This document shows, in pieces, positions 31,348 through 51,232 of a stretch of 64,000 nucleotides of DNA. The notes under the pieces are model-generated. The model was not told where the DNA came from and did not search any database. It saw only the letters and a program-made list of their open reading frames with translations. The position numbers were made by a program, and so were the translations under genes. Each line of letters begins with the position of its first letter. Positions within the stretch are counted from its first letter, which is position 1. The stretch comes from Neofusicoccum parvum. Taxonomy: Eukaryota > Ascomycota > Dothideomycetes > Botryosphaeriales > Botryosphaeriaceae. The stretch covers positions 372,001-436,000 of the forward strand of contig CP087212.1 in the NCBI GenBank assembly GCA_020912385.1, given 5' to 3'.

Positions 31348-32828
31348 TGGCTTTTTAAGTTTTGACTTGGTGTTGCGAGGCGAGGCGGGTGGTTGTGCGG
31401 CACATAATTGGCGTTGGCGGGGTGTTTGGGGTTCTCTTTGGAATCGGGATTGGACGCTGGTCTGATGGAATGGCATGGGAACGGTCGGGGCTATGTCAGG
31501 GGCGCTCTATACCAAAGTCTTGTATTGTTATCTTTTCGCATACGTTCCGGGAGGCAAGCGTCTAGAATGAGCATCAACAACGGTAACCTTGTCAACTTAA
31601 TCCGGCACTTCATTCAGCCATCTTTCCCGCATGTGCCACGAGCCGCAGCAGCCGCTCCCATTTCCCCAACCACACCACCCTCTTTCCCCCAACGTCCCTG
31701 CACCTTCGACCCTGCCGCAAAACCTGCGATCGCTCCACCTCACCCGCAGAACCGAGCCACAGCAGCCCCGCAACGGGCAAGCAGAAGTCGACGGTGGCGG
31801 CCGCTCCCCCTGCACCCGAGACAGCGCGCGTCGGACGCCAGCACCGCACCGCGTCGAACACCGCCCGACGCGGCACTCCGCCCGCCCCCCCTTCCTCCGC
31901 GAATGAAGGGCGATCCCGCGGCGGGAGCATAAAACGCATAAATCCAACGTCCGCCCTTCAATGCCGTTCATGCGGCCTCCTCGCCTTCGAGGCGTCGGCT
32001 GCAGCCCAGCCCTTTCCTCGCACAACGCAACGCGTCGACCGCGATCGCAACACCGTTGCCCCGACGTGAGGCGTGGTCCGGCGCGGGAGTGCGGGCGTGT
32101 GGTTGGGGGTGGACGTCCGCCCGGGTGGTAGCTTTGCGGCGGAGCGGGACGGGTGGGTCGGCGGCTCGGGGGTTGGGGAAAGTTAAAAGGGCGGAAGGTT
32201 GGGCCGGCGGTTGCGTGATCTACTACGTGGGTAGGTGTGGACTGTTCGTCGCTGATGCGTCGGCTCAGCTGATTGATGGTGTGGTGGGCAGTGGATTGCA
32301 GTAAAATCCTCGTCCAGTGCATGTAGGAGCGATGGACGGATCGCGTTGGAAGATGGGTTCTGATGTGATTTGCAGGTTTACTATTCGGTCGGACGGCTCT
32401 TATGCTCAGATATCGCATCCGGTCATACGAAGTACATTGAACCTAAGATATGCTACAGCGTGGAGCCCTAAGGCTTGTCAGTTGTTGTACTTCTTGAGAA
32501 GTCTCGGCCCCAAATATTATACGCGTTACCACTTTTCGCAGCCAGCGTCGAGAATCCAACAGCCGAGAAAATATAGCCATTGGACACAGCTTATCTAGCC
32601 TCGAAGGACGCGGACCTGCAGCATGTTCGGGATAACAACGGGCAGCAGCATTCCGCCAAAGGGCATGGGTTGCCATCGCATGTCACATGTCTTATGGCCC
32701 TTCGGGTGCTACTTCCGGGTTCATTATGCCAGGAACTCACGCCAATACTCTGGAAGAGAATAGACCTATCTACTAATTCCCCGTTATACGCAAGAAATGA
32801 CCGTCCGGACCATCTGGAGAAATAATGG

Positions 32829-32864
32829 TCGGAATGCGACACCGATGTCGGTGCGCCCTGCCGA
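32829..32864. promoter_or_regulatory. Two adjacent TCGG-N9-CCGA palindromes upstream of the aldolase gene
   Basis: TCGG at 32829-32832 pairs with CCGA at 32842-32845, and TCGG at 32848-32851 pairs with CCGA at 32861-32864, each with nine bases between CGG and CCG. They are candidate binding sites for a Zn2Cys6 dimer, with spacing one base longer than the other cluster sites. Confidence 0.4.
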
Positions 32865-32900
32865 TGCTGTCTGCCCAATAGGGTACCGTTCCGATCATCT

Positions 32901-32914
32901 CGGGCATGCTCCCG
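32901..32914. promoter_or_regulatory. CGG-N8-CCG site upstream of the aldolase gene
   Basis: CGGGCATGCTCCCG, flanked by T and A so that it reads TCGG-N8-CCGA. It lies 293 bp before the aldolase ATG. Confidence 0.5.
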
Positions 32915-33206
32915 ACCCCCAACCACCCGAACTGTCAACACCGGCCATGAATTGGAGAAATACCAATCAAATGCATTCATTTTTGTCTTCACAACGCCCA
33001 CGGCACCCGATCCGTGGGAAGTACCTCCCATTGGCACTGCACGCACGTCCGGGCAGCGTTGGCAGATAGATAGATCTATTGCATAAGTAAAGTCATGGAG
33101 GTTAAGGCGGTGTTTGACTTCCTATCCAGCCTTCATTCATCAGTTCCTTCCACTGGAACAGCACACCACCTACAACATCAGAAAACCAGATAGCAGCCTA
33201 TCCACA

Positions 33207-34211
33207 ATGGGATCGCCGCGTCCCCGTCAACCCCACGTCCCGCCGTCAGGCATCTGGTGCCCAGCCGTCACCTTCTTCGACCACGCCACCGACTCGCTCG
33301 ACCTGGCCGCGCAATCCCAATACTTCTCCTACCTCTCCAAATCCGGGCTGACCGGCATCGTGGCGCTGGGCACGAACTCAGAAGCCATGCTGCTCACGCG
33401 CGACGAGCGGCGGCAGACGATCGCAGCCGCGCGCGCCGCCGTCGGGCCCAGCTACCCCATCATGGCGGGCGTGGGCGCGCACTCGACCAAGCAGGCGCTC
33501 GAGCTCGCGCGCGACGCGGCCGCCGCCGGCGCCGACTACCTGCTGGTGCTGCCGCCGGCGTACTTCGGCAAAGCCACGAGCATGGCGGTGGTGCGGCGCT
33601 TCTTCGTCGAGGTGGCCGCGCGCTCGCCCGTGCCGGTCGTCATCTACAACTTCCCGGGCGTGTGCAACGGCGTGGACATCGACTCGGACACCATGGTCGC
33701 CATCGTGCGCGAGTCGGCCGGCGCCACCGGCCGCTCGAACGTCGTCGGCGTGAAGCTGACGTGCGCGTCCGTCGGCAAGATCACCCGGCTGGCCGCGACG
33801 TTCGCGCCCGCCGAGTTCGCCGTGTTCGGCGGCCAGGCCGACTTCCTGGTCGGCGGGCTGGCGGCTGGCAGCGCGGGCTGCATCGGCGCGTTCGCGAACG
33901 CCTTCCCCAAGACCACGGCTACCATCTACGAGCTGTACGCGCAGGGCCGCGTCGAGGAGGCCATGCGGCTGCACAGGAAGGCCGCGCTGGCGGAGAGCCC
34001 GATCAAGAACGGCATCGCCCCGACTAAGTACGCCGCAGCGGTCCACTCGGCGAGGTGGGCGGGCATCGAGGGCGCGGAGGAGAAGTTGAGGCCCAGGCAT
34101 CCGTACGGCGGTCTGGATGAGGCTGCTAAGAAGGTTGTTAGGGAGACGATGGCGGAGGTGGCGGAGATTGAGCTGGCGTTGTACGGAAAGGCGAGCAATG
34201 CCCGCTTGTAG
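33207..34211 (+). CDS. DapA-family aldolase, 4-hydroxy-2-oxoglutarate aldolase-like
   Basis: A single exon of 334 residues; start CACAATGGGATCG. TIM-barrel marks of the dihydrodipicolinate synthase/N-acetylneuraminate lyase family are GIVALGTNSEAMLLTRDER, VLPPAYFGK, VIYNFPGVCNG (with the active-site Tyr) and VVGVKLTCAS (with the Schiff-base Lys). In fungi this family includes L-threo-3-deoxyhexulosonate aldolase of galacturonate breakdown and proteins like animal HOGA1, which splits 4-hydroxy-2-oxoglutarate into pyruvate and glyoxylate. The neighbours (proline dehydrogenase, P5C dehydrogenase, aminotransferase) favour the HOGA1 reading, and no galacturonate gene is nearby; this is inference. 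No mitochondrial presequence is visible. Three TCGG...CCGA elements lie upstream. Confidence 0.88.
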   Translation: MGSPRPRQPHVPPSGIWCPAVTFFDHATDSLDLAAQSQYFSYLSKSGLTGIVALGTNSEAMLLTRDERRQTIAAARAAVGPSYPIMAGVGAHSTKQALELARDAAAAGADYLLVLPPAYFGKATSMAVVRRFFVEVAARSPVPVVIYNFPGVCNGVDIDSDTMVAIVRESAGATGRSNVVGVKLTCASVGKITRLAATFAPAEFAVFGGQADFLVGGLAAGSAGCIGAFANAFPKTTATIYELYAQGRVEEAMRLHRKAALAESPIKNGIAPTKYAAAVHSARWAGIEGAEEKLRPRHPYGGLDEAAKKVVRETMAEVAEIELALYGKASNARL

Positions 34212-35419
34212 AGATACACGGTAGATATGTATAGATCACGCAAGAGCTGGGTGTTTTCATGTTCCTCACATCTCACTACAGACCTTTCCACAAAGTATGA
34301 TGTGAGTGACCATGATGATCCAAGTTGGAAATCATGAAGTACTGGATAAAGACTGATTATTCAGGGAAATTGGCCTACCTGCTTAAGTGATGCAGTGATT
34401 GTCTGGTATCAGCCACTTGTGATTAAAATTCGCCAGGTAGGTTCGCATTCATCACCTGAATTCTGATCGGTGAGGGCTGCACTTCTCACTGCTATGGACA
34501 TGAGGGTCCGCTGTGTACGTGTGTCGTTCCGTCTGTCTATATGAGTTTTGTTGCGAGGACCATAGAGGCCCGAGGACTCTGGGCTTAATCACCATGATGC
34601 TGGTCGACACCAGTGAAGCTACTGCCTCCGATTTTGGGTTCCAAGGAAACTGTCTGGGGAACAAGAGAAGTCTGTAATATCCAAGTCTATTGTTTTTTGA
34701 GGAAGTCGTTCCTGACAGAGATTTAGTATGATGTGGATGGTTGTTGGAACTTGTCAGCCTTGTTGGCATTTGAACCTTTGAATCAGCCATTCTGTTTTCT
34801 CGCAATAGTGTCAGTAGCTCTCCGTCGACCCTTTTATAGTCGGATATCAAGAAAACACAGCCGGGGACGACAAGTGTTATAATTTGCAGAGGTTAAGGCA
34901 CAACGAATTTGAGAGTTACAGCTCAAGAATCTTTGTCAGGACCCAGGAGAACGTCCTGAGTTTTGGAGGGGTTCGAGATGGAGGCATATGAGTAACGATA
35001 GCGCTTGCGGAACGGAACGGAAGCCGGCGGAGACTTTCTTATCCACATCCGGTTTTAGGTACATCGCTCCAGATAGAACTGCTGGATTGTGACGCTGATC
35101 ACACCGACGTTCAATTCCACCCAAGAACCTGGAGCCTCGTAAACGAAGGAAAATGGACAGGCATACGGCGTTTGGGTTCCGGTTGACACATTTCGCAGGA
35201 TGGCAGAGCTATCTGGGCAGATATATATTTAGCGTGGCTGAAGGGGCGATAGGGCCTGCTGCCGTCATGCCGCCGGCGCACAGGCGCCTTTACCCCGCAT
35301 TTCGGCCTCTAGACCCACTGCATAAGATAAGAGCAATCCGTAGAGGCATAACAAAACGTCGTCGGCAGAGCGCCCGTATCGCTCAATCATCCCATCCCGC
35401 CAGCGCTGAACGAATTCTC
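34212..35419. other. Intergenic region between aldolase and regulator
   Basis: 1.2 kb with no recognisable gene. It contains a CGG-N8-CCG site 407 bp before the regulator ATG. A longer in-frame upstream reading (from about 35153) exists but has no better start. Confidence 0.45.
35013..35026. promoter_or_regulatory. CGG-N8-CCG site upstream of the Zn2Cys6 regulator
   Basis: CGGAACGGAAGCCG, in a CGGAACGGAACGGAAG run. It is the only cluster site without a flanking CCGA. It would allow self-regulation. Confidence 0.35.
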
Positions 35420-38075
35420 ATGCCTCCTCATTCCCAGCAGTCACGGAGACAGAGTGGGCAGACCGCATCGGGAAACGGACGAGGCCGGGTGGCCAAGCGG
35501 TCTTGTAACGCGTACGTGGTTGTGGCAGCAGCAGAACTTGCAGTCTTGGCCCGGTTCTAATCTCCACGGTTCAGCTGCGCACGATGTCGCAGGCAGAAGA
35601 TCAAATGCTCCGGGTCTCAGCCCTGCGAAGCCTGCAGCAAACGCAAATTATCCTGCGAATTTGACGAGCGCGACCAAAAGATCCTAGTAACCCGAGGGTA
35701 ATCCAGCCACTCCCGTGCGACGGCTGGAAGCTAACCGGTGGTGACAAGGTATATCATTGACCTAGAGCGGAAACTTGCATACTGGGAACGAAGCGAGGGT
35801 GCCGACGCCAGCACGCCCGGCTCGGTTTATGCCATCCAGGACAATGACAGAGCCGCAGAGGACGGTGTGTAGCTGGCTTTACCGCATCGGGTTACTACCG
35901 GAAGTGCTCACAGTCTCACAGCTGATTCCGACGCCGGCTCGGGAGGAGGAGAGGAATCCGGATTAGGCTCCGGGTCTGCCGCATGGGGGGCGGATAACCA
36001 GACTTCTCAACCCATGGCACGTCTGGATCCCGTGACGTCGACTCTGACAAACCCATTGTCTACCGGTCCCTCGCAATTCATAAGAGCAAGCGATGGGAGG
36101 CCGTGTGAGTTCATCGCCTCTTCCGAGTTTTGCAACCACGAAACCCTAACCAGCCTACAGACTATCTTGGAACTTCATCGAACTGGTCATTTACTCGGCG
36201 GGTTCTAAGCATGACGCACGAATACATCTATCGGGCACCAGTCCCTACCACCACTATGCTATTTGACGGGTTTGCGTACGACCTGAAGTGGGACGGCTAT
36301 CGGACCGCGCCAGGTCTGGATACTCCAGCTTTGCCAACACTCGACTACGCCATCTTTCTAATTAACGCTGTCAAGTTTCATTGCAGCCAAACCTTCCATT
36401 TATTCGATGAGGAGTCCTTCATGAGATGCCTCTACGATTTCTATTCAGATCCGACCCCCAGGATAGCAGCGGCAGACCTGTGGTATATTCATTTTCTGGC
36501 CATTCTTGCTTTTGGAAAGGCATTCACCACAAGGAAAGCAAATGGAAACACGCCTCCGGGTGCCGACTTCTTTCTCAAGGCCATCCAGCTGCTGCCAGAG
36601 ATGAATGCACTTGTCAGACAGCCGTTAATATCAGCAGAGATCCTATGCTGTATCGCTCTGTATTTTCAGTGCCTGGACTACCGGCATGCAGCGCACAACT
36701 ATGTGAGTCTATCAAAAACAGCACTTCCAGCAAATCTGACTGATGATGTAGATTGGGATAGCCATGAGGCTGGCGATGTTCGAGGGCATGCACACCGATA
36801 TGCCAATCCAGCATTTGGGCGAGGCTCAGGTTGAGAGATGTCGTAGAACCTGGTGGACGATATATGTTCTGGATCGGGAAATGACGTCCTTGATGGGTCT
36901 TCCCCAATCAATACACGACGACGATGTGCACCCAGACCTACCGAATTTCTCGGGCTCAGTGCAACGAGCCGCGGCTCTCAACATGCAGATCAAGTTGTCT
37001 CGAGTCATTGCCAAAATCAATAGGGGTAAGTCAACAACTTCTCTACGTTTTGTGTTTTCTGCAACTGATTTGTTTCTCACCAGGGGTTTACGGGGCCAAC
37101 GGGCGACTGAACAGCAAATTCTTGCTTAGCACGAAAGAAGTGCTTGCAGGCATTGCAGGCCTAGCTGATGAACTTCGAAACTCGTTTCCTCTGCACTTGG
37201 ACAATACCATCAGCGGCATCTCGAGAACGTCGGCACATCTGCACTTGCTCTATCATCAGGTAGGAAATACCTTGGCGCTGTTCCATCTTACTCTTCATGA
37301 GCAAAGAGATAACTTTGACTCCCCAGTGCATTGTCCTCGCAACACGGCCTTTATTATTCTGTTTTCTGAAAATACGGTTCGAGTCCCAGGGCACTAACCT
37401 CGACCCGCTGAACTCTTCCCAAACTGCCTGGAATCTGATCAAAATGTGCATTGATTCCTCTCAACAAATGATCAATATTCTCAATTGTCTACAAGCGCAG
37501 GGTCTTCTTGGTAAGCCAATGCATTGGTTACTTCCTGCTCGAGCCGGTGGACTTGGCTGATTCTCTTGTTTTCTCATTCAGAGACCTTCCTCCCTTTCGA
37601 TCTCCAATCTATCTCCGTGTCAACGGTGAATCTCCTGCTTGCTCCAGCGGTTGATCCTCAGCTACTGGAAAGCCGCAGTCCGTGGCTCGAAAGGGCATAC
37701 GCAATACTCGACGACATGGCAGCCAGTGGAAATGTGGTGGCTAACTTTCAACGGGATGAATTGCGGCAACTGGATGATATGCTTGGCCGTGTCTCTCGGC
37801 ATCAGTCAAGACGTTCATCCGCCCCATTAGATCCTCCGCAGGATGTCCTACATGATCATCCGTCGACCGAAGTACCGCCAACAGCCTCCTTGGCACCTGC
37901 AACAACTCAACCCATGGGTAATGACCTCTTGCCATCCCCCATCTCTGGAATTCTGGACGAGCTCACCTTCAACAATGGATTGACGGCTGCGCAAATCATG
38001 GACACGGCAAACTCGATCGAAAGTTGTGATACCGAATGGATGTCCCAAGCAATCTTGGAACATAGCATCTGGTAG
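35420..38075 (+). CDS. Zn(II)2Cys6 transcription factor, probable pathway regulator
   Basis: Nine exons (35420-35511, 35575-35697, 35749-35864, 35922-36104, 36161-36702, 36752-37025, 37084-37259, 37327-37510, 37582-38075) give 727 residues. Residues 31-57 form the zinc cluster, spacing C-x2-C-x6-C-x5-C-x2-C-x6-C, beginning CARCRRQKIKC. After it come DERDQKILVTRGYI and DLERKLAYWE, a linker and short coiled coil as in dimeric factors. The middle holds the fungal-specific domain with GTSSNWSFTRRVL and, near residue 380, RRTWWTIYVLDREM. The last 150 residues are polar and probably activating. Position inside the catabolic cluster, and a CGG-N8-CCG site in every cluster promoter, suggest it controls these genes much as Put3/PrnA control proline use. 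Start: the first ATG giving a short basic N-terminus; an earlier in-frame ATG at about 35267 cannot be excluded. Confidence 0.88.
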
Positions 38076-38323
38076 ATCAGACCATCTTTCAGTGGCTACC
38101 GCCGGGTTTTAGCCTCACCATTTGGACTGGTTACCAACAGCTAGGACAAGAGATTCTCATGTCAGAACAGCCTCAGACGAGGAAGGCATGCATTTTGAGT
38201 AATATTTGCTGGGCCGATTCACCTGGCCAAACTGAACCGCACGCTGCCATTGAAGTAGGTTTAATGCACATATCCAGACTACCAACACTTCCATCCAATC
38301 ACAACACATAAGCACAGTGCCCC

Positions 38324-39726
38324 TCAAATCTTTGACTTCGGTGACGGTCGAATCTCCTCGAACTCCTTGGACTCCCCAAGGCGCCAGCTAACATCACCAC
38401 CCCAATTCGCCCCCTTCTCCTCCGGCTCAGGATCCTTCCAGCGCCACCTGGCCACCGGCTGCCTGCCATCGGGCGCCTGGAGCAGATCCCTCACCCACTC
38501 GCCCACGATGGGGAACATCTTGAATCCGTGGCCAGAATCGCCCGACAACAGCACCACCGACGAGCCCGTCCCCGGCACGTAATCAACGATGAAGTCCGAG
38601 TCGCTCGTGTCCGCGAACCAGCACAAGCTCTTCCGCACCAGCGGCCGGTCCTTCAGCGCCGGCAGCGTCTGCGCCAGCAGCCGCCGCACCTGCGCCTCGT
38701 CTTGCGGCGGCATGAACGCGCTCTCCGCCAACCCGGGCGGCAGCGACACGCCGGTGCGCGGGTCGGTGTTGACGAACCCGCCGCCCATGGGGCACAGCTT
38801 GAGCAGGTTGGTCTTCGGATCCGGCTCGAAGAAGAAGCCCAGGTCGCGGGCGTAGGTGACGGGCAGGCCGCGCAGCGCGCTGGTCTCGTCGTCGGACAGG
38901 CGGACGTGCGCGACGGACCAGCTCTTCGCGACGACGCGCGCGCCCGCCTGCGGCACGAGGCGCGCGGCCGCGGCGCCGGCCGCCACGATGACGAGCGCTG
39001 CGCTGTGGAAGCGGCCGTCCGCCGTCGTGACGCCCGTGGCCTGCCCGTGCGCGATGGCGGCCACGCCGCCGGCGGCCGGCCCCAGGAAGAAGCGCACGCC
39101 GCGCGCCCGCGTCGCGCGGTACACGGCCTGCAGCGCGGCGCCCGAGTGCGCGTAGCCGTCGAGGCGGTTGAGGTAGCCGCGCCAGCCTGGCAGCGGCGCG
39201 TCTTTGTACTGCCACACCAGCCGCCGGATGTCGGCGTCGCTGTCGATGGGGACCACGTGCGGCGCGATGGCCGGGTGGCGCTGGGCTGAGGCGTGGAAGC
39301 GGTCGAGCGTGCCGATGGCTTTGTCTGGGGCGGCCGACGAGACGCAGTGCAGGAAGCCGGTCTGGTGGAAGTGCGGCGCGAAGAGGGGGGTTTGCCAGGC
39401 TGAGATGGCTTTCTGGGTGGTGCGGCGGGCGCGGGTTAGCAGGGGCTCTTGCAGAGGAGTGACGTCGGGCTGTATCAGAGCGGAGGGGGGGAGATGGGTG
39501 CGGGTTGGCGTACGATGGTCAGGTCTGTGTAGAATGGATCCTCATATTCAGCCCGTACAATCTTGTTGATGTCATTGGCGGCTGATTGGCGGGGAGGAAT
39601 TTGGCTGTCCTGTTCGAAGACTGAGATGTTGGTGTAGCCGGCCTGGGACAGGTGCAGCACTGTCGACAGACCAAAGGCACCAGCCCCAACTACGATGATT
39701 GGATCGTCGGTTTTGAGAACACCCAT
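38324..39726 (-). CDS. DAO-family FAD amine oxidase (pipecolate/sarcosine oxidase-like)
   Basis: Two exons (39726-39514, 39412-38324) give 433 residues. The N-terminus is the dinucleotide fold IIVVGAGAFGLSTVLHL, followed by EYEDPFYTDL. Intron 1 has a perfect TGCTAAC branch site and restores TDLTIKAISAWQTPLF. Later marks are GFFFEPDPKTNLLKLCPMGGG and GDSGHGFKMFPIVGEW, as in fungal L-pipecolate/saccharopine and fructosyl-amine oxidases; a CWFADTSDSDFIVD segment lies between them. The C-terminus is PSPKSKI; -SKI is an acceptable type-1 peroxisome signal, so a peroxisomal oxidase making H2O2 is likely. Substrate: probably a cyclic or N-alkyl imino acid (inference from family and cluster). It converges with the regulator gene. 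Confidence 0.88.
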
Positions 39727-40494
39727 GGTGGAGATTACGTGATGAAGTTGTCTACCCAGACCACCTTAGCTCAGCCGGATGAGCATGGATATATATGTGC
39801 ACTGCTCGCTGCTGTTGTCGCTGCAAATAAAGCACGTCAGGGCGATCTCGCTGCATTGTCTGGTCTGGTGAGGTGGAAATGGGAACCCTTTCCGGGAAGG
39901 TGGGGCACACGTCAGATGGCCCGGAAGGCCTGCCGATGAGACCAACTCAGTCCACTGCGGGGTTGCATACTCGAGCCGATCTTTCTTATCGCTCACGCCA
40001 GAGGCAAAACAGTTATCGGTACCCTCTCCGGGAGACTACCCCGCCGATGGATAGACGAACGGCGGAGGTGTCGCGGTTATTGACGGCAGATGTGCATTGT
40101 TTCTTTCGGTAATACCAGCTTCAACGCTTCTTGAGGCTTCGAGACAAACATCTTCAATTGCTACGTCTTCACTAGAGGTGTGCCGGCGGAAGACCCCAAA
40201 AGCTGAAGCTAAATGCAAGGACCGATCCTACTGTGTAATGTGGGTTCACGTGTGTGGATCTGGGGACGTCGATCTTCCTACACGGACCCTCAGTCTCATC
40301 ATCTGGACTATGTTTTCCGAGGTCAACATTGAGAGGAAACTGCTGAGAACTAACACTTGCACGAAATGAAGCAGCAACGTAGAGGCATGAAAATCATATT
40401 CAATTCCTTCGGGATAATCCTTTTCTACCAGATACCAATACACATTCTTCCTTTTGTTGACCGCTCCATATCAACTGCTCGCTCTCTCGCAACC
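39727..40494. promoter_or_regulatory. Promoter region of the FAD oxidase gene
   Basis: No gene seen. It contains a CGG-N8-CCG site at 39922-39935 and the 3' flank of the P5C dehydrogenase gene. Confidence 0.45.
39922..39935. promoter_or_regulatory. CGG-N8-CCG site upstream of the FAD oxidase gene
   Basis: CGGAAGGCCTGCCG followed by A (CCGA), 196 bp before the ATG at 39726. Confidence 0.5.
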
Positions 40495-42420
40495 TCAATG
40501 ATTGCTTGGGTATTTGAAAGTAGTCACCGGGAAGAATTCCTCCTTGATCAACCTAGGGCTCGTGAAGCGGCGTAGGACGTCCGAGCTGCCAGCCTTGTCA
40601 TTGGTACCACTGGCGCGGGCACCGCCGAAGGATTGCTGGCCGATCAGGGCCGCAGTGGTCTTGCAGTCTAAAGGCACACACATGTTAGATTTTGAAAGGA
40701 ATTTGGTGGTGCTTCGTAACTTACTGATGTAGAAATTGCCCGCAGAGTAGCGGAGAGCGTCTTCAGCCTCGCGGATGACGGCGCGGTTCTCGGCAAACAC
40801 GGCGCCAGTCAAAGCGAGCCCGCCACCGTTCTGGTCGACACTCTTCAGAAGGGAGCTCCATTCCGAATCGGGGTAGACGTAGACAGCCAGCACGGGCCCG
40901 AAGATCTCTTCATTGAAGAGCTTGTGGTCCGGCGAATCAACCTGGTAGACAGTCGGGTTCACGTAGTAGCCGACGGAGCCATCGTAAGTGCCACCAGCCA
41001 GCAGCTTCACTGACGAATCGTTGTTGCTCTCGTCGATGATGGATTTGATCTTATCGAATGACCGGCCGTGGATCACAGGACCCATGAAAGCTTCAAGGTC
41101 CTTATCCGGGCTTCCGATGGTGATCTCGTTGACGCCGCTCTTCAAGCCGTCAAGGAACTCCTTCGCTCGAGACTGAGGAACGTATGCTCGAGAAGTAGCC
41201 GAGCACTTCTGGCCTTGGTACTCAAAAGCGCCGCGAATCGTGTGGTTGACAGCGCTCGGGATGTCGGCAGATGAATGGATGAGGTGGAAGTTCTTGCCGC
41301 TCGTCTCGCCAACCACACGGGGGAACTCGCGGTAGGTCTTCTTTCCAATACCCTCACCAATCTTGGCGTAGATGGAGCGGAACACATCCGATGATCCAAT
41401 GAAGTTCAGGCCAGCAAAGTCACGGTTGGCGAGAACAACGTCCGTGATCTCTTCGGCGTCGCCGGGAACGAACTGGATGACATCCGGGGGAAGACCAGCC
41501 TCCAGCAGAATCTTGTAGACGATTGCACTGGCGTAGATGTTGTACTGGGAGGGCTTCCAAAGGACCACGTTGCCCATTAATGCCGGGCCAGACACCAAAC
41601 TACCACCAAGTGCAGTGAAGTTGAATGGGGAGATAGCGTAGACAAATCCTTCCAAGGGTCGGTAATCCATCCGGCTGTGAGCGTAATCAGCTGCCCGTCC
41701 TCTTCTATATTTAAAGTAGTCACTGTATCACGTACCTCCACATGCCATTGCTTCCACGAGTTGGTTGTCTTTCCAGCAATTCGGCTGCATAGTTGCAGTT
41801 CAGACGGAAGAAGTCCGCCAATTCGGCCGCGGCATCAATTTCGCCCTGCCAGATGTTCTTGCCCTGGCCCAGCATGGTAGCTGCGATGAGCTCATACCGG
41901 TACTTGGTCGTCACCAGCTCGGCTGCCTTCTGGAAGATAGCGGCTCTGTCCACGAACGGTGTGTCCTCCCAGCTCTTTTTCGCCTTCAGCGCGGACTCGA
42001 TTGCGGTCGATACCTGCTCCTTGGAGGCAAGCGGGTAGTTGGTGAAGGTAGTCTTGTGTTCCGAAGGCAGGACCTGGTCCAATGACTTGGATGTGGTGTG
42101 TGCTTTGCCGTTGTAGAAAATCTCGCTCTTAACAGGTAGCTGTGATCGAAGCTTTGTCAAGGCCTTCTCCAGCTGGAATCGCTCGGGGGACCCCCTCTCG
42201 TAGGTAGGCTGAAATTCAAGAACTGTTAGCTTGTTGGTTTTTTCTCTGAAAGCATTGGGATGCTCACGTTTGGCTCATTCCGGGGATCAGGGAGTCTGAA
42301 CGGGGCAGTGGCCTTTGTCCGTCGCTGGTAGCAAAGTCCAGTAGGAACAGGACGCAGGGTTTGCGCGGTGGGCCGCACAGGGCGCATCAAGTTCGACGCG
42401 AGTGTTCTTGTTACAGCCAT
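40495..42420 (-). CDS. Delta-1-pyrroline-5-carboxylate dehydrogenase, mitochondrial (PUT2/ALDH4A1 type)
   Basis: Four exons (42420-42268, 42208-41736, 41674-40725, 40667-40495) give 582 residues. The first 40 residues are basic and hydroxylated (MAVTRTLASNLMRPVRP, YQRRTK), a mitochondrial presequence. The body matches ALDH4: ERFQLEKAL, PFVDRAAIFQKAAEL, ISPFNFTALGG, the catalytic Glu in VGETSGKN, the catalytic Cys in YQGQKCSATSR, EEIFGPVLAVYVY, and GQQSFGGARASGTNDKAG after the last intron. It oxidises P5C to glutamate; the same enzyme class converts 3-hydroxy-P5C to 4-hydroxyglutamate in hydroxyproline breakdown. Both splice joins that fall in conserved sequence are restored (WSRMDYRPLEGF, NFYINCKTTAA). 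It shares a divergent promoter with the membrane-protein gene. Confidence 0.95.
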
Positions 42421-42580
42421 ATTATCTGTTGAATGTGGGGGATTGGAGAAGGACAACAGTCAGGGAAAGAGACGACATCTTGAATTGCGAAGACAGCCAG
42501 CTTTTTTATTGGACACATGCAGCTACCCGGCGAAATGTTTAGCGTGGAAGATGCCTATCACCAGCACGTCAGAGATGCGC

Positions 42581-42594
42581 CGGGACCGCTGCCG
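42581..42594. promoter_or_regulatory. CGG-N8-CCG site, P5C dehydrogenase side
   Basis: CGGGACCGCTGCCG followed by A, 161 bp before the P5C dehydrogenase ATG. Confidence 0.5.
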
Positions 42595-42694
42595 AGACAG
42601 CAGCTGTGGGCCCGGCAGTACCCCGCAACGCCGCGCCGACCTGTGCAGTATCCACGTCGGTTTCGACAAAGGTGGGAGGAACGCGGCGCTGTGT

Positions 42695-42708
42695 CGGGAG
42701 CGTAGCCG
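42695..42708. promoter_or_regulatory. CGG-N8-CCG site in the divergent promoter
   Basis: CGGGAGCGTAGCCG flanked by T and A (TCGG-N8-CCGA). It lies 275 bp from the P5C dehydrogenase ATG and 439 bp from the membrane-protein ATG. Confidence 0.5.
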
Positions 42709-43146
42709 ACCGCCCTGATAATTGTCTGCCACGATGTTGATCACGGAGTCTGTCATGCTCGCGCTGTCGGGTCACACCCGTGTTGAAAGGGTAGAATTTC
42801 CGTTTCGAGAAGTGCACTTGATTGCCGGCTTGAGCTTTTCCCCGCCATCTCTCTCGAGAATGCTCTATTTCCATGTTTTCCAAGCAGATGGAAGGGACTT
42901 TAGATGAGTGGAAGACAATCCCGAGAGGAACGATAAGTCTTGCTCTGGATCTCAACCTCACGGGCAAGCCAGCTAAAACTTGAACAAGTCTGAGAAAATC
43001 AAGCACGGTCTTTCAGGCCCAGGATAGGCGTCGTTTGTTAGTAGTGGATCAGAGATTCTGCGCTTGGCAAAGAATAGATAAATGCGCCTAAACAGTTTGC
43101 AGGCTGACAGGACGACAAATCTAAGGGCACCCACACGCCGCAGGAA

Positions 43147-44074
43147 ATGAGTGCTGGCTTCATGGCACAACAAGAAGCACAGAAGCTCCTCAACAGCCGG
43201 AGCGATCCCAACAATCGAAGCCATGTGTGGAGGCAGCTCGCCGGGGACTTCTCTGCCGCCGCGATATCAGCAACATTGGTTGCTCCCGCGGTGACCGTAA
43301 TCGACAGGTAAGAAGTTGGCGGATGACTGGGCAGACATGGAGACTGAAGCGCTGACTATATCCAGGGCCGTTGTCGAAAAAGCATCTTTGAACAAGCTCC
43401 TCAACCGCAGCCTACGCACTCATACCCTTTCGGCTTTGATGCGACCAGGGAGGTTCGTGTTCTCCAGACCATTTGCCATTGTCTGGACCCTATACGCAGC
43501 TACATACACCGTGGCTAATGGAGCGGAGACCCTTGCCAAAGAGTTCCACACAGCCGCCACTGGCACCATCACATTTCTCTCCACAATGGTGATCAACGTG
43601 CCATTGGGTGTCTGGAAGGATCTCCGCTTTGCCCAGTTCTACGGCACCGGCAGTGTTGCCGACAAAGCCCGGACGGTGGTGGCCAGCAAGGGCCGAGTCG
43701 CAGTCCCAAAACCCGCCACTGCGGCTTTTCTGGTCCGTGATGGGTTGACTATATTCGGTTCCTTTACTCTGGCTCCCTGGTTGGCGGGCGCCATCCCCGA
43801 CAGCATGGCCGATCCACACGGCAAAGCGACCATTACGCAGTTGACAGTGCCCGTTCTGTCACAGCTGGTAGCCACTCCCGTGCACCTGCTCGGACTCGAT
43901 CTGTATGATAGGCAAACAGGGATAGCTTTCACGGACAGAGTTGCACGAATCCGACGAGGTCTGGCGTCAGCGACTGTAGTGCGGTGTGTTCGAATCATCC
44001 CGGCTTTTGGATTTGGGTGTCTTACAAACATTGAGGCGAGATCGTTCTTCCACAAGGCATTTATGGGTGCATGA
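43147..44074 (+). CDS. Six-helix membrane protein with a threefold repeat, possibly a divergent mitochondrial carrier
   Basis: Two exons (43147-43307, 43366-44074) give 289 residues. Splicing joins APAVTVIDR to AVVEKASLNK. About six hydrophobic segments are visible (roughly residues 36-50, 85-107, 121-137, 178-197, 211-228, 258-275). Three segments look alike: AAAISATLVAPAVTVIDR, ITFLSTMVINVPLGVWKD and VPVLSQLVATPVHLLGLD. Each has a helix with L/I-S and a kink proline, at residues 47, 133 and 225. Length, six helices and a roughly 90-residue period with a proline are what SLC25 carriers show, but the Px[DE]xx[KR] motif is degenerate, so the assignment is inference. It could move a pathway intermediate across the mitochondrial membrane. 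A second ATG at 43162 is an alternative start. Confidence 0.75.
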
Positions 44075-44266
44075 TTAGACTTTGGGCGCTTCAAGTCAAC
44101 ATAAACAACACTTTTACTTCAGAATTCGAAATTTAAGCCGTTTCCGTTGAACGACTTGATCGCCCATGCTTGGTCAATGTATTGAAACTTCATCACTTCT
44201 CGACATCTCAAATTTCGAACTCTGCTTTATGATTAATGCAACTCAAAAAGCTACATTGCGTGTTTT

Positions 44267-45241
44267 CTACTGTCTTGTATCGTTTACATGCGGGACGTTC
44301 TCCATGAGCCGAGCAACCGTAACAGCTTCCCTCAGCGCACGCCCGATGTGGCCTCGAACGCCAGCTTCTTCCATAACCATCAGACCACCAATCGTGCACC
44401 CTTCCGGCGACGTGCCCTGATCCTTAAGGAGCGCTGGATGGACGCCGCTCTGGAGCATCGTAGCCGTGCCTTGCATGGCCTGAAAGATCATGGTGTGCGC
44501 CATGTCTCTGGGGACCCCAACCGCCACGCCAGCATCAATCAACGCATCCACGATCACCGCGAAGAAGGCCGGCGTCGATCCCGCGAGGGCGGTGGTAGCG
44601 TTCATCAGCTTCGGGGCGATGTGAACGGTGCGGCCGATTCGTTGGAAAATCGAGTCCGTGAGATGCAGGTGCCGGTCCGGCAGGGCAGGCTCCGAGACCT
44701 CGATGGCCGTGAGGGACTGCGAGACAAGCGCCGCGATGTTGGGAAGCGTGCGCACAACCCAAGCCCGGCCTTCCTGGTTGCCGGCGGTGGTCTCGCTCCC
44801 GTACACGGTGCTCTCGAGCTTTTGGCGCGTCCAGCCGGCGACGACGCTGATCAGCAGCTTGTTCGTCAAAGCGTCGCGAATGCCGGGCTGCGTCAACACC
44901 TTCTCGATGTCGGCCGGATCTGCGCCCAGGATGACAACGTCCGAATCTTGCACAGCCTTGATGTTGTCTCCCCTTGAGATCACCAAGTTTTGCGAACTCT
45001 GGGAGAATCGATCTTTCAGTGCCTGTTCCGATCTCTCGCTTCGTACACAGGCTATGAATTTGGTGAATGGCAAGGTCTCGGTTCCACCCGAAGGGACATT
45101 AACCAGATTGGTGAGAATGGCAGTGCCCAGGTTGCCTGTCCGTTATCCGTCAGCATGTCATACAACGACGCTCTAGAGGTCGTAGCAGGCCAGCATACCG
45201 CAGCCCAACACGCAGAGAGTGGCATTTTTCAACTCAGCCAT
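44267..45241 (-). CDS. Pyrroline-5-carboxylate reductase family protein
   Basis: Two exons (45241-45199, 45135-44267) give 303 residues. The first exon ends inside the NADP-binding loop, and splicing gives CVLGCGNLGTAILTNL. Further marks are DVVILGADPADIEKVL, VVRTLPNIAALV, STPAFFAVIVDALIDAGVAVG and the C-terminal signature GTSPEGCTIGGLMVMEEAG, close to the family consensus tPgGtTiaGL. It reduces P5C to proline with NAD(P)H. In a breakdown cluster its role is unclear: it may recycle P5C, or act on hydroxylated or C2-unsaturated pyrrolines. A CGG-N8-CCG site lies 215 bp upstream. Confidence 0.9.
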
Positions 45242-45455
45242 GATGTGATTGAGTCAGGGAAATCTTTCTTCGCAATGCAAACGCTCGCCGAAGCTTCTGA
45301 CAAGATTAAGCCATGGTCCAGAAGGAAGCGGTCTTAAGCCTGGCGGGTCTGATAGACTCCGATGACATCAATGGAGACATGTCCGGCCAATGTCCCATGA
45401 CTATGGCAGTTCGTTAGAGAAGCCGACTGTGGGGATGTCCGCGCGTTGTGGGGAA

Positions 45456-45469
45456 CGGGAGGGCATCCG
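45456..45469. promoter_or_regulatory. CGG-N8-CCG site upstream of the P5C reductase gene
   Basis: CGGGAGGGCATCCG followed by A (CCGA), 215 bp before the ATG at 45241, in the short gap after the proline dehydrogenase gene. Confidence 0.5.
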
Positions 45470-45667
45470 AGCTGATAAGAGGTCGAATTTACCTAATCGG
45501 TACGCTAGCTCCTGCGTGAAATGCGGGGCTCTAGACGTTCCTTGAGCGTGAGGAAACCATGGCTATCTTGTCTTCCGCCTCTATGCGATGCTTTCACATG
45601 GCTGGTGCACTAAGAGAATGAGTAAGGGAAAGATTCGCTTTACGCCTTGGAGCTACCTGGAGACCTG

Positions 45668-47169
45668 CTACCTCATACCGAACCAAAGAGAGGGAGAGAA
45701 CAGCACCTTGAGCCGCCTCCCCATTTCTGCTTTCAATGCCGCGTGCTCATCTGCCGTTCTCGATGCGGCGTCGCGATTCTCTGCTGCCCTCCGCATCAGG
45801 TATGCCAGACACTCGCCCATGCTGCCCCAAGTCGAGCACTTGTAGACCTCCGGCGCCGCGTCGGGGCCCTTCTTCAATGCCAGCAACCCAAAGCTGAGCT
45901 CATCCGACATGCCATGGAGCTGCGCGAAAGTGACCGGCACCGTCGGCAGACCCACGCTCACCCGCTGCTGGTGCAACTCGTGAGCAGCCAGCACGCTGGC
46001 CTTGTTGTGGCCAGCCACGAGCAGATTCACAGCCGGGAAAGGCCGGCCGCCCTTGGCTCCGAACTCGCCGATCTCCTGCCTGAGCGCTCCCTGGGCGATG
46101 CTGTCGTAGGCGTCATCGGTCTGCCGCTTTGTGTCATGGATCAAGGACCGCTCGTCCGAGGCCAGGTAGGCCCCTCTCACCACCTTGAGGCCGAGCGTGA
46201 ACCCCTCGTCGACGGCGGCGGCCAGGTGCCGGGCCAGCGCGGCCGGCGTGCCCTTGAGGTAGGCCTGGTAGGTGTTGTAGACCAGCGCGTACCCGTCCTT
46301 GTTGTACCGCCGCATGAGCTCGAGCCCCACGCGCGCGATGCCGCGCTGGAAGTGCTGCGACTCGGCGTCGATCACGACGCGGGCCTTGCGGTCTCTGCAC
46401 TGCACGCAGATCTCGTCCAACGCGTCCATCATCTGCTGCCTCGGCAGGGATCCGGCGGTAAAGGCCTCGCACACCGATGGGCCAGCTCCGGTCAGCCTGG
46501 TGTACAGTCAATGCTCCGTTTGGGGAAGGGAAGGGGGTAAGAGCAGACGTACTTCACGGCCAGCTGATCACCTTCTCCCAGTAGATCAACGGTCTTTAGT
46601 GTTCCTTCTCGCCAGGCCTCGATGTTGTCACACAACTCTTTCGCTCCATCTTCTCGGTCCGCGACGCCCAACCCATGTTGTGTGTTCGTGCGATGGTCAA
46701 ACACGGTCTCCTTTGCGTAGGTGAGAATGGTGCCGCGGAATCCCATTTCTCTCAACTTTCGAGTTGTGGCTCGGGTCTCGTCTCCAGTTTCCCCGGCGCA
46801 GAACTGTTTGTAGAAGGTTCTCTTCAAGATCCAGTGGAGGAACGGATTACGGTCGACGCTTAATATGAAGCCCCTGCCGGGTTTGCAGAGTGCCGAGAGA
46901 ATGGACAGAGCCGGAGTGAGCAGATAGGGTTTTGATGATATGGTGTTGATGAAGGCTGATCTGAGCAGCATGCCAGTCGGCAGAGCCGAAAGCGGCGAGG
47001 GGGTGACATCTGCTGTGCTCTGCCTCTCGGCTTCCTTCGAACTCGAGTCAAATCGCTCGTTGTTCAGGCTGCTGCTTCTCAGGGTCGGCGCGATGGATGC
47101 CCTGCATCGTGAATTCCGGATCCTCAATGCCTTTGTGGTGGTTCTTCTTGCAAGGGATGAGTTGGCCAT
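45668..47169 (-). CDS. Proline (or hydroxyproline) dehydrogenase, mitochondrial, FAD-dependent
   Basis: Two exons (47169-46553, 46496-45668) give 481 residues. The N-terminus is a basic, Ser/Arg-rich presequence (SSLARRTTTKALRIRNSRCR). The catalytic domain shows GFRGTILTYAKE, VVIDAESQHFQRGI, ALVYNTYQAYLKGTP, LGLKVVRGAYLASDE and HELHQQR, as in eukaryotic PRODH. Splicing at GTACGT...CCAG joins LAVK to LTGAG. It oxidises proline to P5C at the inner mitochondrial membrane; the animal paralogue PRODH2 acts on trans-4-hydroxyproline. Sequence reading alone cannot separate the two, but the neighbouring aldolase and aminotransferase point to hydroxyproline. A TCGG-N8-CCGA element lies 145 bp upstream. 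Confidence 0.93.
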
Positions 47170-48391
47170 AGCTCAGTAGGACGCGGGGGGTACGGCGTGT
47201 CGTTAACTGCGGAGATGACGGCTTGTAGTAGCAATCGAGACACTAATTTATGAATGGACTCTTTTGAGTCTTATCGTGGTTCTTTGGGTAATTCATGTCA
47301 TGTGGTCGTACATCGGCTGGCTTTCCGACGCTGATTGCATCAAGACTGGATGATATGTGGGATGTCAACCCCTCACGGGGCTGATAGTCGACGGCAAATG
47401 GAGCCCCGCTCAGAAGAGGGGCCAATAAGATGTTTGCCTATGGCCCCATAGCTTTGCAGACATATTTTGGTAACTGAATGAACTTACCGATAATGGATCA
47501 ACTTTCCGCGGGCCATCTATGGAATTGCTATCCAGATCGGATGTAAGATTTTCGGTTCCGTTACACGGGGCTGAATCCGGCAAGAATCGTACGACCAGCC
47601 AATAAGCTGTAGGAGGAGATAGGACAAGGCGCAGTGTCGGCGCTGTCCCGACAGCATACCGGATCTGGTCCCCGCCACAGCATTCAAGTGACGATGTTTT
47701 CTTGGCTCAAGGAGGGGCACACTATTATTGAGTTGCACGTGGATTTGGGTTCCATTTTTGATCACATTGACAAAGTCCGACACCACAGTATGTTGCTGAA
47801 GCTTACAGCGAGCACAAACTTTACACCAATGCGTGAGAGATGAGATATTCGTCTGAATAGTGCGGATATGAATTACCATGAATTTGTGAACCGAGTGAAT
47901 GCTTCAGCACCCTATGGCCAGAAGTGATTTAAGTAAGATCAGTCTTGTCGGATGACTCACTAGTCCCTGCGGAAATTGTCGGTGGTGGCACCAGGCATGC
48001 CGCAGTTATCGAGATCACAGAGTCAAGACACGCTATGACATGTGTTACAACTGAAGAAGACATCTGACAAGACAAGGTAGTTCGGTGCGGGCATATCGAT
48101 GCTGCTCCTAAGCTGATCATTCTGTGCACTTTGATATCCTACCGACCACCGCTATCTTCAATAAGCCACTGAAACTTGGGAAATAGTGGGGGGACAGTAT
48201 TAAAATCACCATTTGTTCTCAAATATGAAAGAAAATTATCTAGTCAAAAGACGAGTAGAGCCTAAGGGACAAGGCCCAGCCCTGAAAAACAGTATTGGAG
48301 AGATCAACTTTGTACAAGACAATAAGACTTGACTGGCCTGATCAATTTTGTTTGCAATTGTCTAAGATGAGACTGGTATTTTGTCTGACTA
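47170..48391. other. Intergenic region, proline dehydrogenase promoter
   Basis: 1.2 kb with no recognisable gene; short open frames only. It holds one TCGG-N8-CCGA element near the dehydrogenase start and the AT-rich 3' flank of the aminotransferase gene. Confidence 0.5.
47314..47327. promoter_or_regulatory. CGG-N8-CCG site upstream of the proline dehydrogenase gene
   Basis: CGGCTGGCTTTCCG flanked by T and A (TCGG-N8-CCGA), 145 bp before the ATG. Confidence 0.55.
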
Positions 48392-49711
48392 CTAAACTGT
48401 ACGGACGACATTATCCAGTGCTTTGGCAACGTACGTCACATTTCCATCATTGAGTCCTGCGATAGAGATCCTCGAAGTGTCGGCCATGTAGATGTGATGC
48501 TTTTCTGCAAAATAAGTCAGCAATAGCACTATCGATTTAAAGAACCGCTGCTAACCTTCAAGCTGCGCGACTTGAGAGCGACTGATTCCTGTGTACCCGA
48601 ACATGCCGCTCTGCTTGATGATATGAGTCCAGTCACCCGGGGTCTCCAGTTTTACCAATTCGTCATAGAGCTTCTTTCGCATGGACTGAATTCGGCCTGA
48701 CATGGTGATCAGATCCTGAGCCCACTGCTTTGCGATTGCAGGTTTCTCGAGAACGGTGGCTGCGATCCGAGCGCCATACGCGGGAGGGTTTGACACTGTC
48801 GAGCGCTGCACATTCTCCAGGATGGAATGCATGGTTCGGGCTATCTCTGCAGATGCCGTCACGAAAAGAACGAGACCAACTCTTTCGCCGTAGAGGCCCA
48901 TGTTCTTCGCAAAGGACATGCAGACAGCGGCCTCGAGAGCCAGATCTTCCAAAAAGTAGCGGATGGCCCATGCGTCTTCATCCACCGAGCCCGAGTTGAA
49001 GCCCAGGTATGCTGAATCAAAGATGGGAAAGATGCGTTTCTCCTTGATTACCGTTGCAATCTGCTTCCACTGGTCGCGTGAAGGATCGCAGCCCGTCGGG
49101 TTGTGGGCGCAAGCGTGCAAGACGACGGCGGAGTGGTCATCTGCTGACCGGAGGGCATTGATGTAGCCCTCGAAATCGAAGGATCTGTCCTTGTAGTACG
49201 GCAACTTTTTCACGTGGTAACCCAAAGAGCTGAACAACAAGTCATGGTTCGACCATGTCGGGTCGGTAATGTAGACAGTCTCGACGCCTGTCTTGGCTTT
49301 CTTGAGAGCAAGGCCAGCGAGAAGAAGTGACCCGGTCCCTGAAAGCGCCTGGCAGGTAGCCACCTTTTGAGATTATTAGAATGCGTTTTGGGTATCATGC
49401 ATTTCAGCACTTACTCGCTGCTCTTTCAATGCGTCTGATCCGCGCAGAACCAGCTTTGTGGCTTGCTCCCTGAAGGCAGCCAACCCAGCGATTGGAAGGT
49501 ACTCATGCCCACAATCGCCAATCTCTTCCTTCGCTGCCTTGACGGATGGTAACACCCATGGCTGCCCGCGCTCGTCCCGATACGTCCCTTGGCCAAGATT
49601 AACTTTGTTCGGATTCTGATCTGCAAGGTATCGTTTCGTCACTTCGAAGATGGCGTCCGGCGGTATGTACTCCGCAGAGTCGAATGCCGACGTTTGTTGA
49701 ACAGACCCCAT
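48392..49711 (-). CDS. Aspartate aminotransferase (cytosolic type)
   Basis: Three exons (49711-49415, 49363-48556, 48504-48392) give 405 residues. Family marks are VNLGQGTYRDERGQPWVLP, YLPIAGLAAFREQATKLV, CQALSGTGSLLLAG, HACAHNPTGCDP, DSAYLGFNSG, and the PLP-binding SFAKNMGLYGERVG with Lys near residue 252. The C-terminal exon gives HHIYMADTSRISIAGLN, restored by the GTTAGC...TGCAG intron. No mitochondrial presequence is visible. It moves amino groups between aspartate/oxaloacetate and glutamate/2-oxoglutarate. In animals this enzyme also transaminates 4-hydroxyglutamate to 4-hydroxy-2-oxoglutarate, which fits its place at the end of this cluster. Two TCGG...CCGA elements lie within 190 bp upstream. 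Confidence 0.93.
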
Positions 49712-50369
49712 TGCAACTGAGTGACGATGTGTGAAGACGAGTGTGATTATAAAATGAGAAAAATACTGCGGCGGGCTTCAATATATTCGGGCTTCTACTG
49801 GGTCGCGGGCTTGCATATGTTGTCCAAGAAGAGTCCAAAGTGCCTCTCGGCCAGATCGGGTAGACAGCCGAAGTAGCCGCTTCGGCTACTGTTCCCGATG
49901 TGGAGCTCCATCACCTACGTATTCCGCATATGCGCCAAGAATTGGATCAGATGCCGTCTTGTATAGTAAGTAAACCGGTTTTCTGGCAGAGAACGGGAAA
50001 CAGAACAGCAATCAGGGCCAGTAATTTCAATACGATCCCGGGCGGATGGTAGCTTGTGGCAGGCAAACAAGCAAACATGGCAATTGCAAAGCCAGAGCCA
50101 GACTCCACGACCCTCTTTGACGGTTAAACCCAGCCTTGTCGGTAATAGTCAGCCTTCTCGGTAACTCTGGGGGTATCCAGATAAGGAAAGACCCAAATGT
50201 ACTGCAACAAAAAAAACCTCTGGTTTACCGGAACACCGATCCCCAAGATGACCGTTCTCCGACCGTCATGTAATGCCAACGCTGATGCTTGTGCAATTAT
50301 TTCCCTGTCCATGTAGCCCGAACTCATTCAAGAGAGCTCCTGGTTGTGTGCTCCCAGTCAAATATCCCT
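49712..50369. promoter_or_regulatory. Aminotransferase promoter and MED21 3' flank
   Basis: 658 bp with no gene. Near 49857-49898 it packs a TCGG-N8-CCGA site, a CCGAAG/CTTCGG inverted repeat and a TCGG-N9-CCGA site. Confidence 0.45.
49857..49870. promoter_or_regulatory. CGG-N8-CCG site upstream of the aminotransferase gene
   Basis: CGGGTAGACAGCCG flanked by T and A (TCGG-N8-CCGA), 146 bp before the ATG. A TCGG-N9-CCGA follows at 49882-49898. Confidence 0.55.
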
Positions 50370-50906: not shown

Positions 50907-51232
50907 GGTTGCGGGGACCGGCGACGGTCGGCGGAGGAGATGGAGTGAGGACCGCGTCAAAACGGAGGGTCGCCGGCGGGCAATCGCGGTCGAGATGGAG
51001 GAGCAAGATGTGGAAGAGGCCACGGCTGGAAGCTCAAGCTCGAGCTCGGAAGATCGGCGTTTCGGTCCCTGCACGCAGCTGCAGGCACTTTTCTGCCACC
51101 ATCTGCGTCATCAACCATTCCCGAAGCCATTGAGGATGCCAGATTGCTCAACACGCTGAGTCTGGCCTATGCCATGAGAGCTATGGGTCTCTATTCTGAT
51201 TCGACGTCGTCAATACACCCCCCGTCTCTACG
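50907..51232. promoter_or_regulatory. Shared promoter of MED21 and RRG7
   Basis: 326 bp between the two divergent start codons. GC-rich near MED21; no TATA box seen. Confidence 0.5.

Follow-up and report, generated by a model that had tools for sequence, protein, structure and literature searches.

Animals break down hydroxyproline by way of PRODH2/HYPDH, ALDH4A1, aspartate aminotransferase (AAT), and HOGA1. In the prn cluster of Aspergillus nidulans (prnA, prnX, prnD, prnB, prnC), a Zn2Cys6 regulator, a proline dehydrogenase (PRODH), and a pyrroline-5-carboxylate (P5C) dehydrogenase (P5CDH) are reported to stand together (PMC5983819), and the hydroxyproline pathway of bacteria has been outlined as well (PMC5144071). 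Here, we analyzed a 64,000-nucleotide stretch of the Neofusicoccum parvum genome (44 Mb, 18 contigs), namely C7:372001-436000, hereafter called the window, in whose coordinates positions are given unless a contig is named. Eight of its genes, at 33207-49711, encode a DapA-family aldolase, a Zn2Cys6 transcription factor, an FAD oxidase, a P5CDH, a six-helix membrane protein, a P5C reductase (P5CR), a PRODH-family protein, and an AAT. We consider it likely that they constitute a trans-4-hydroxyproline regulon following the animal-type route, with hydroxyproline as the presumed substrate, the PRODH and P5CDH steps in the mitochondrion, and the later steps outside it.

The cluster contains the same enzyme classes as the animal pathway, one of each, and its aldolase keeps the catalytic Lys and Tyr and the substrate-binding Asn of animal HOGA1. 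Unlike their animal counterparts, the fungal genes are clustered and apparently co-regulated, and they are joined by P5CR, FAD oxidase, and carrier-fold genes. The animal aldolase is reported to have been purified from mitochondria (PMC3188589), whereas the fungal AAT and aldolase lack mitochondrial-type N-termini. Like the prn cluster, the N. parvum cluster unites a Zn2Cys6 regulator with PRODH and P5CDH; unlike prn, it includes genes for AAT, an aldolase, an FAD oxidase, and a carrier-fold protein, has no permease, and carries a CGG-N8-CCG repeat rather than PrnA elements. With bacterial Lhp clusters it shares the DapA, FAD-oxidase, and ALDH superfamilies and, as we propose, a common end use, but it has no epimerase-family gene, its ALDH is of the P5CDH type, and PRODH and AAT are present. 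An earlier, sequence-only reading of the window had named these eight adjacent genes and remarked that all enzyme classes of the animal route lie side by side; both statements held, as every gene was recovered with the expected family and the PRODH-family, ALDH4-type, AAT, and DapA-family members are all there. Two of its assignments, those of the FAD oxidase and the membrane protein, were confirmed in outline and could be refined.

Families were assigned from Pfam, NCBIfam cut-offs, and PDB sequence matches, and gene models were spliced at GT-AG introns, giving complete, full-length proteins for all eight genes (Table 1). Pfam placed the aldolase in DHDPS (the DapA family; E = 4.4e-36), the FAD oxidase in DAO (1.8e-33), P5CDH in Aldedh (3.4e-95), P5CR in P5CR_dimer (2.1e-33), PRODH in Pro_dh (2.7e-49), AAT in Aminotran_1_2 (7e-73), and the regulator in both Zn_clus (PF00172; 7.5e-8) and Fungal_trans (PF04082; 1.7e-15). 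P5CDH, with catalytic positions Cys366 and Glu332, passed the NCBIfam cut-off for L-glutamate gamma-semialdehyde (P5C) dehydrogenase (TIGR01236; 702.3 versus 613.6 bits), and P5CR passed that for proC (TIGR00112; 220.1 versus 196.75 bits). The PDB entry nearest to the window AAT, which has Lys252 at the pyridoxal phosphate site, was the aspartate aminotransferase 1yaa. The FAD oxidase, previously called DAO-family, was nearest to fructosyl-amine and monomeric sarcosine-type oxidases in PDB and NCBIfam, with scores below the NCBIfam cut-offs; its C-terminal tripeptide is SKI. Within the first 35 residues, PRODH has 8 basic and 0 acidic residues and P5CDH has 6 and 0, compared with 2 and 5 in AAT and 2 and 3 in the aldolase; from these charge counts, we read the N-termini of PRODH and P5CDH as mitochondrial-type and those of AAT and the aldolase as not. 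A peroxisomal aldolase was considered and rejected: the window aldolase, which shares 99% identity with a Neofusicoccum ribis protein, ends in ARL, yet a tripeptide resembling the type 1 peroxisomal targeting signal ends just 2 of its 120 listed relatives. As a separate observation, the catalytic-Glu stretch of P5CDH reads GETSGKNFH, and Gly replaces that Ser in the paralogues on C1 and C10 and in two PDB matches.

To these family assignments the intergenic DNA adds a shared promoter repeat. We scanned it for 60 half-site arrangements, choosing the outer limits of the two end promoters (32300 and 50350) ourselves. The inverted repeat CGG-N8-CCG occurred at 12 sites in 6,336 intergenic bases, against a mean of 1.16 and a maximum of 5 in 300 dinucleotide shuffles, and it occupied all seven promoter regions of the cluster; the two 3'-3' gaps held none. 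In 1,000 further shuffles of the seven promoter regions, the best of the 60 patterns never reached 12, and in a single shuffle one or another pattern occupied all seven promoters. Within the cluster's gene bodies, there were 10 matches in 11,715 bases (other spacers there, 3-15), and because N8 occurs there like other spacers, the promoter signal lies in the spacing together with the promoter placement. N8 did not stand out elsewhere in the window (33 in 45,949 bases; other spacers, 13-36) or at 12 other genome loci (60 in 117,000 bases; other spacers, 32-70), both mostly coding. Under a strict filter admitting no open reading frame, N8 counts were small (3 in 2,930 cluster bases versus 3 in 14,247 bases elsewhere). 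CGG-N9-CCG was also tried as a promoter code and dropped, its six occurrences equaling the shuffle maximum of 6. Through the CGG-N8-CCG repeat, the eight genes apparently form one putative regulon, presumably bound by its own regulator, and the aldolase and AAT are tied to the proline-type genes because the repeat is common to all of them.

The reported binding elements of A. nidulans PrnA are CCGG-N-CCGG and CCGG-6/7N-CCGG (PMC5983819). Scanning 32300-50350, we found no such element in the cluster promoters and two in gene bodies, one CCGG-N-CCGG (44672) and one CCGG-N6-CCGG (46033). PrnA elements were likewise missing from 20 kb of C10 that includes a separate proline-type gene group, and therefore this test may not suit N. 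parvum.

Parts of the neighborhood recur in other fungi. Protein searches were evaluated on the best 120 of 1,745 matches for the aldolase, 120 of 307 for the membrane protein, and 120 of 482 for PRODH, and locus tags were compared by eye using positional tags alone (JGI model numbers, taken as non-positional, were left out). Membrane protein and PRODH tags lay one to two steps apart in 9 of the 10 assemblies with positional tags for both, i.e., Cosmosporella, P. macrosclerotiorum, P. canariense, P. argentinense, P. fimorum, P. paradoxum, A. hancockii, A. nanangensis, and Fusarium NRRL 66182, and lay far apart in P. angulare N7478. Moreover, 34 of the 120 listed PRODH relatives were on a contig of the same size as that of a listed membrane-protein relative, 19 of these 34 contigs being shorter than 1 Mb. 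Fused gene models point the same way: in one from F. oxysporum, an AAT orthologue (71%) directly precedes a cluster-type PRODH, and in five from Colletotrichum and one from Zopfia, a P5CR orthologue (67-78%) directly follows one, all keeping the gene order and strand of the window. Given the shared promoter repeat and these recurring neighbors, the grouping of the eight genes is more than chance.

We envision the following route. Related to the regulator-like protein of the C10 proline-type group, the Zn2Cys6 factor would bind CGG-N8-CCG in all seven promoters and induce the genes. In the mitochondrion, the PRODH-family enzyme would oxidize hydroxyproline to 3-hydroxy-P5C, from which P5CDH would yield 4-hydroxyglutamate, and the carrier-fold protein may move hydroxyproline in or 4-hydroxyglutamate out. 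AAT, which has no mitochondrial presequence, would then produce 4-hydroxy-2-oxoglutarate, which the DapA-family aldolase would cleave to pyruvate and glyoxylate. P5CR and the FAD oxidase might conceivably be accessory, perhaps in imine recycling or in the oxidation of N-modified or other ring-amino-acid forms. Escherichia coli ProC is reported to oxidize both 4-hydroxy-L-prolines, 150- to 300-fold less efficiently than proline (PMC12899673), and therefore a hydroxylated substrate for P5CR may be possible.

The proposed carrier, noted earlier simply as a six-helix membrane protein, is predicted to adopt a six-helix mitochondrial-carrier (SLC25) fold. The SLC25 signature consists of three sequence repeats, each with PX[DE]XX[KR]. 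This three-repeat signature is not present in the window protein, in which, by eye, the middle repeat alone (PLGVWKDLR) resembles the motif. The protein had no Pfam match at 0.001, its 41 aligned relatives matched no carrier or other plausible Pfam family at E up to 1, and a single paralogue (37%) occurs elsewhere in the genome. We note here a fungal family that, judged from 41 scanned members, has no Pfam model and combines a predicted mitochondrial-carrier fold with a degenerate carrier signature.

The end product of proline catabolism is glutamate, and no aldolase is required to reach it. For this reason, and because the genome has another proline-type group, the hydroxyproline reading is favored. 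The second group, at C10:992-1001 kb, comprises P5CR-like, regulator-like, PRODH, and P5CDH genes, three of the four being Pfam-confirmed and the regulator exon alone lacking a Pfam match; judged from its gene content, its substrate would be of the proline type. When the genome was searched with the window aldolase, membrane protein, AAT, and FAD oxidase, nothing in this group matched, in agreement with the sequence-only reading, which had stated that classical fungal proline clusters need neither an aldolase nor an aminotransferase. The regulator-like gene at C10:995087, beside the proline-type PRODH, matches the window regulator at 36% over its best segment. The window regulator has its closest paralogue at C9:1623966 (41%), where, by eye, no proline-related gene lies within ~10 kb. 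A transporter-like gene near the C10 group belongs to the OPT family and is not of the PrnB type. Four N8 matches fall within C10:992.7-1000.9 kb (993171, 995164, 997719, and 998245), and because all lie inside open frames, the promoters of this group are without N8.

Further copies are scattered over the genome. PRODH has four (in the window and at C10:997103, C5:895444, and C4:1867893-1869143), the best segments of the latter three matching the window copy at 44, 44, and 39%, respectively. There are three close copies of P5CDH (57% on C1 and 53% on C10 to the window copy) and three of P5CR (42% on C14 and 34% on C10). At C2:963463-966494, a 60% paralogue of the aldolase directly adjoins a 46% paralogue of AAT. 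Aldolase thus stands beside aminotransferase twice, as expected if the aldolase substrate arises by transamination. The C2 pair in turn adjoins a long non-ribosomal peptide synthetase (NRPS) gene, from C2:967212, with condensation, carrier, and adenylation domains; as an aside, the pair might provide an unusual 4-substituted glutamate as an NRPS building block. The dedicated hydroxyproline cluster proposed in the sequence-only reading is partly supported, by the presence of all enzyme classes of the animal route, the promoter repeat, the separate proline-type group on C10, and the second aldolase-AAT pair; hydroxyproline is its putative substrate.

Active-site residues were compared in the PRODH and the aldolase. 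Tyr540 of E. coli PutA is reported to favor proline over hydroxyproline (PMC3718742). A PDB sequence search with the window PRODH gave no match at 0.001, and a profile search then gave PutA; the Tyr540 position is occupied by Cys426, in a register where HMMER opens a two-column gap against E. coli PutA and where the 4nm9 PutA aligns Cys with Tyr ungapped. This column holds Cys in 110 and Ser in 2 of 112 PRODH relatives (8 of the 120, of at least 520 amino acids [aa], were dropped). For the aldolase, the nearest PDB entry was 3qfe, and human HOGA1 (3s5o) ranked third (E = 4e-26). Lys183 (Schiff base), Tyr147, and Asn57 correspond to HOGA Lys196, Tyr168, and Asn78, which are described as the catalytic Lys and Tyr and the substrate-binding Asn (PMC3188589), and they are kept in 120 of 120 listed relatives, whereas HOGA Ser77 and Ser198 are replaced by Thr56 and Thr185.

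Several of our observations weigh against hydroxyproline as the substrate. The proline-type C10 paralogue and the C5 paralogue of PRODH also have Cys at the Tyr540 position, Tyr being found in the C4 copy alone, and because the C10 paralogue has Cys, this residue does not separate proline from hydroxyproline use. Changing HOGA Ser77 to Thr, the residue present in the window aldolase, is reported to have lowered the activity of the human enzyme (PMC3188589), and the HOGA-type Asn and the Thr in place of Ser198 recur in other DapA-family paralogues of the genome. We therefore rejected the PRODH and aldolase active sites as a demonstration that hydroxyproline is used. Among the listed PRODH and membrane-protein relatives, none was named for hydroxyproline, and no proline permease of the PrnB type occurs among the eight modeled genes (other open reading frames of the window were judged by eye). 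Finally, the best aldolase hit lay far from a listed core gene in all eight tag-comparable Penicillium/Aspergillus assemblies (P. cinerascens, P. macrosclerotiorum, P. canariense, P. cosmopolitanum, P. odoratum, P. taxi, P. herquei, and A. nanangensis); as the best 120 aldolases were listed, a second, less similar aldolase in these clusters is possible. Among the listed matches, two contig sizes linked aldolase to membrane-protein relatives informatively, 211,800 bases (Diplodia seriata) and 19,228 bases (one contig), a third of 8.9 Mb being uninformative; none of the listed matches placed aldolase and PRODH relatives on a same-sized contig. With respect to gene order across fungi, which the sequence-only reading had proposed to compare, the core (membrane protein, P5CR, PRODH, and AAT) thus recurs, whereas the aldolase is linked in only two informative cases. 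Given the distance between aldolase and core in the eight assemblies, the cluster probably gained or retained the aldolase in certain lineages only.

The foremost alternative, which we regard as unlikely, is a second proline cluster. Here, PRODH, P5CDH, and P5CR would oxidize proline or run a proline-P5C cycle, AAT would move the glutamate amino group, and the aldolase would be an unrelated late joiner. Such a reading suits the recurrence of the core together with the remote position of the best aldolase hit in Penicillium/Aspergillus, the Cys shared with the proline-type paralogue, and the adjacency of P5CR and PRODH, which fits a cycle. It sits poorly with the existing proline-type group and the four PRODH genes of the genome, with an aldolase promoter that holds two of the twelve shared sites, and with the aldolase adjoining AAT again on C2.

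Improbable, in our estimate, is another 4-substituted proline or glutamate (e.g., 4-methyl- or 4-hydroxy-4-methyl- forms or, via the FAD oxidase, N-modified hydroxyproline) handled by the same aminotransferase-aldolase logic. Fructosyl-amine and sarcosine-type oxidases act on N-substituted amino acids, and the FAD oxidase nearest to them belongs to the regulon, with two sites; the second aldolase-AAT pair, moreover, adjoins the long NRPS gene. However, hydroxyproline is far commoner than any such compound, and the sequence points to none of them.

We give very little credence to a bacterial-type route, in which the DapA-family protein would be a pyrroline-4-hydroxy-2-carboxylate deaminase, the FAD oxidase would act on D-hydroxyproline, and the ALDH on 2-oxoglutarate semialdehyde. 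DapA, FAD-oxidase, and ALDH superfamilies do occur in the bacterial hydroxyproline pathway, but the window contains no epimerase-family gene (PF05544 matches were found only on C3 and C4), the ALDH scores 172.9 against a cut-off of 770 for the 2-oxoglutarate semialdehyde model while passing that for glutamate-semialdehyde dehydrogenase, and such a route needs neither PRODH nor AAT. Just as hard to credit is an accidental grouping around a sugar-acid aldolase of the galacturonate or L-rhamnose route: fungi use the DapA-family aldolase GaaC for galacturonate and JGI labels some relatives 2-keto-3-deoxy-L-rhamnonate aldolase, but no sugar-acid gene is among the eight and the promoter sites are common to proline-type genes. 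In A. niger, furthermore, deletion of three PF00701-type candidates, which may or may not include the orthologue, is reported to have left growth on L-rhamnose unaffected (PMC5674754).

Returning to the animal-type hydroxyproline route, we advance more tentatively, as a possibility somewhat short of even, the wider proposal of a dedicated eukaryotic hydroxyproline regulon with a CGG-N8-CCG code, in which the steps of the animal-type route are divided between mitochondrion and cytosol, a Pfam-dark transporter of carrier fold serves the route by moving hydroxyproline or 4-hydroxyglutamate, and the core is widespread in Pezizomycotina. Among the top-listed titles and abstracts of the open PMC literature (subscription papers lie outside that scope), we found no description of a fungal hydroxyproline gene cluster or of fungal genes for the animal-type route. 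What we propose is the animal pathway run as a fungal regulon built on proline-cluster-type genes, an earlier description being possible. A. fumigatus is reported to use hydroxyproline as a nitrogen source with slowed growth, and its proline oxidase Afu3g02300 to be more abundant during infection (PMC2526178).

The cluster could let a plant-associated fungus use hydroxyproline from plant cell-wall protein or animal collagen. Among the amino acids of plant extensins and animal collagen, hydroxyproline is a major one. The proposed route would yield glyoxylate, from which oxalate can be formed, and oxalate is secreted by many fungi that live with plants. With the gene set defined, a regulator site predicted, and an orphan carrier-fold protein at hand, the question can be tested directly in laboratory molds.

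Table 1. Genes of the N. parvum cluster and CGG-N8-CCG sites in its promoters (window coordinates)
Feature	Position	Strand	Protein and exons	Remark
DapA-family aldolase	33207..34211	+	334 aa, one exon	proposed 4-hydroxy-2-oxoglutarate aldolase
Zn2Cys6 transcription factor	35420..38075	+	727 aa, nine exons	proposed cluster activator
FAD oxidase	38324..39726	-	452 aa, two exons	near fructosyl-amine / sarcosine oxidases
P5CDH	40495..42420	-	582 aa, four exons	ALDH4 type
Six-helix membrane protein	43147..44074	+	289 aa, two exons	Pfam-dark, predicted SLC25 fold
P5CR family protein	44267..45241	-	303 aa, two exons	
PRODH family protein	45668..47169	-	481 aa, two exons	proposed hydroxyproline dehydrogenase
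AAT	48392..49711	-	405 aa, three exons	
Sites, aldolase promoter	32901..32914, 33001..33014			
Sites, regulator promoter	35013..35026, 35363..35376			
Sites, FAD oxidase promoter	39922..39935, 40017..40030			
Sites, P5CDH / membrane protein promoter	42581..42594, 42695..42708			divergent
Site, P5CR promoter	45456..45469			
Sites, PRODH promoter	47314..47327, 47566..47579			
Site, AAT promoter	49857..49870			

The window holds further genes on both sides of the cluster. To the left, ~5.5 kb away, lies a nitrate-reductase-like gene with molybdopterin, cytochrome b5, and FAD domains (24329-27691, + strand), and to the right are an RRG7/Mrr-type nuclease-like gene (51200-52114, +) and a HET-domain gene (57867-60131, +). 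Unlinked to the cluster, the two proline racemase family (PF05544) genes at C3:2992626-2993612 and C4:1653323-1654381 possibly encode 3-hydroxyproline enzymes.

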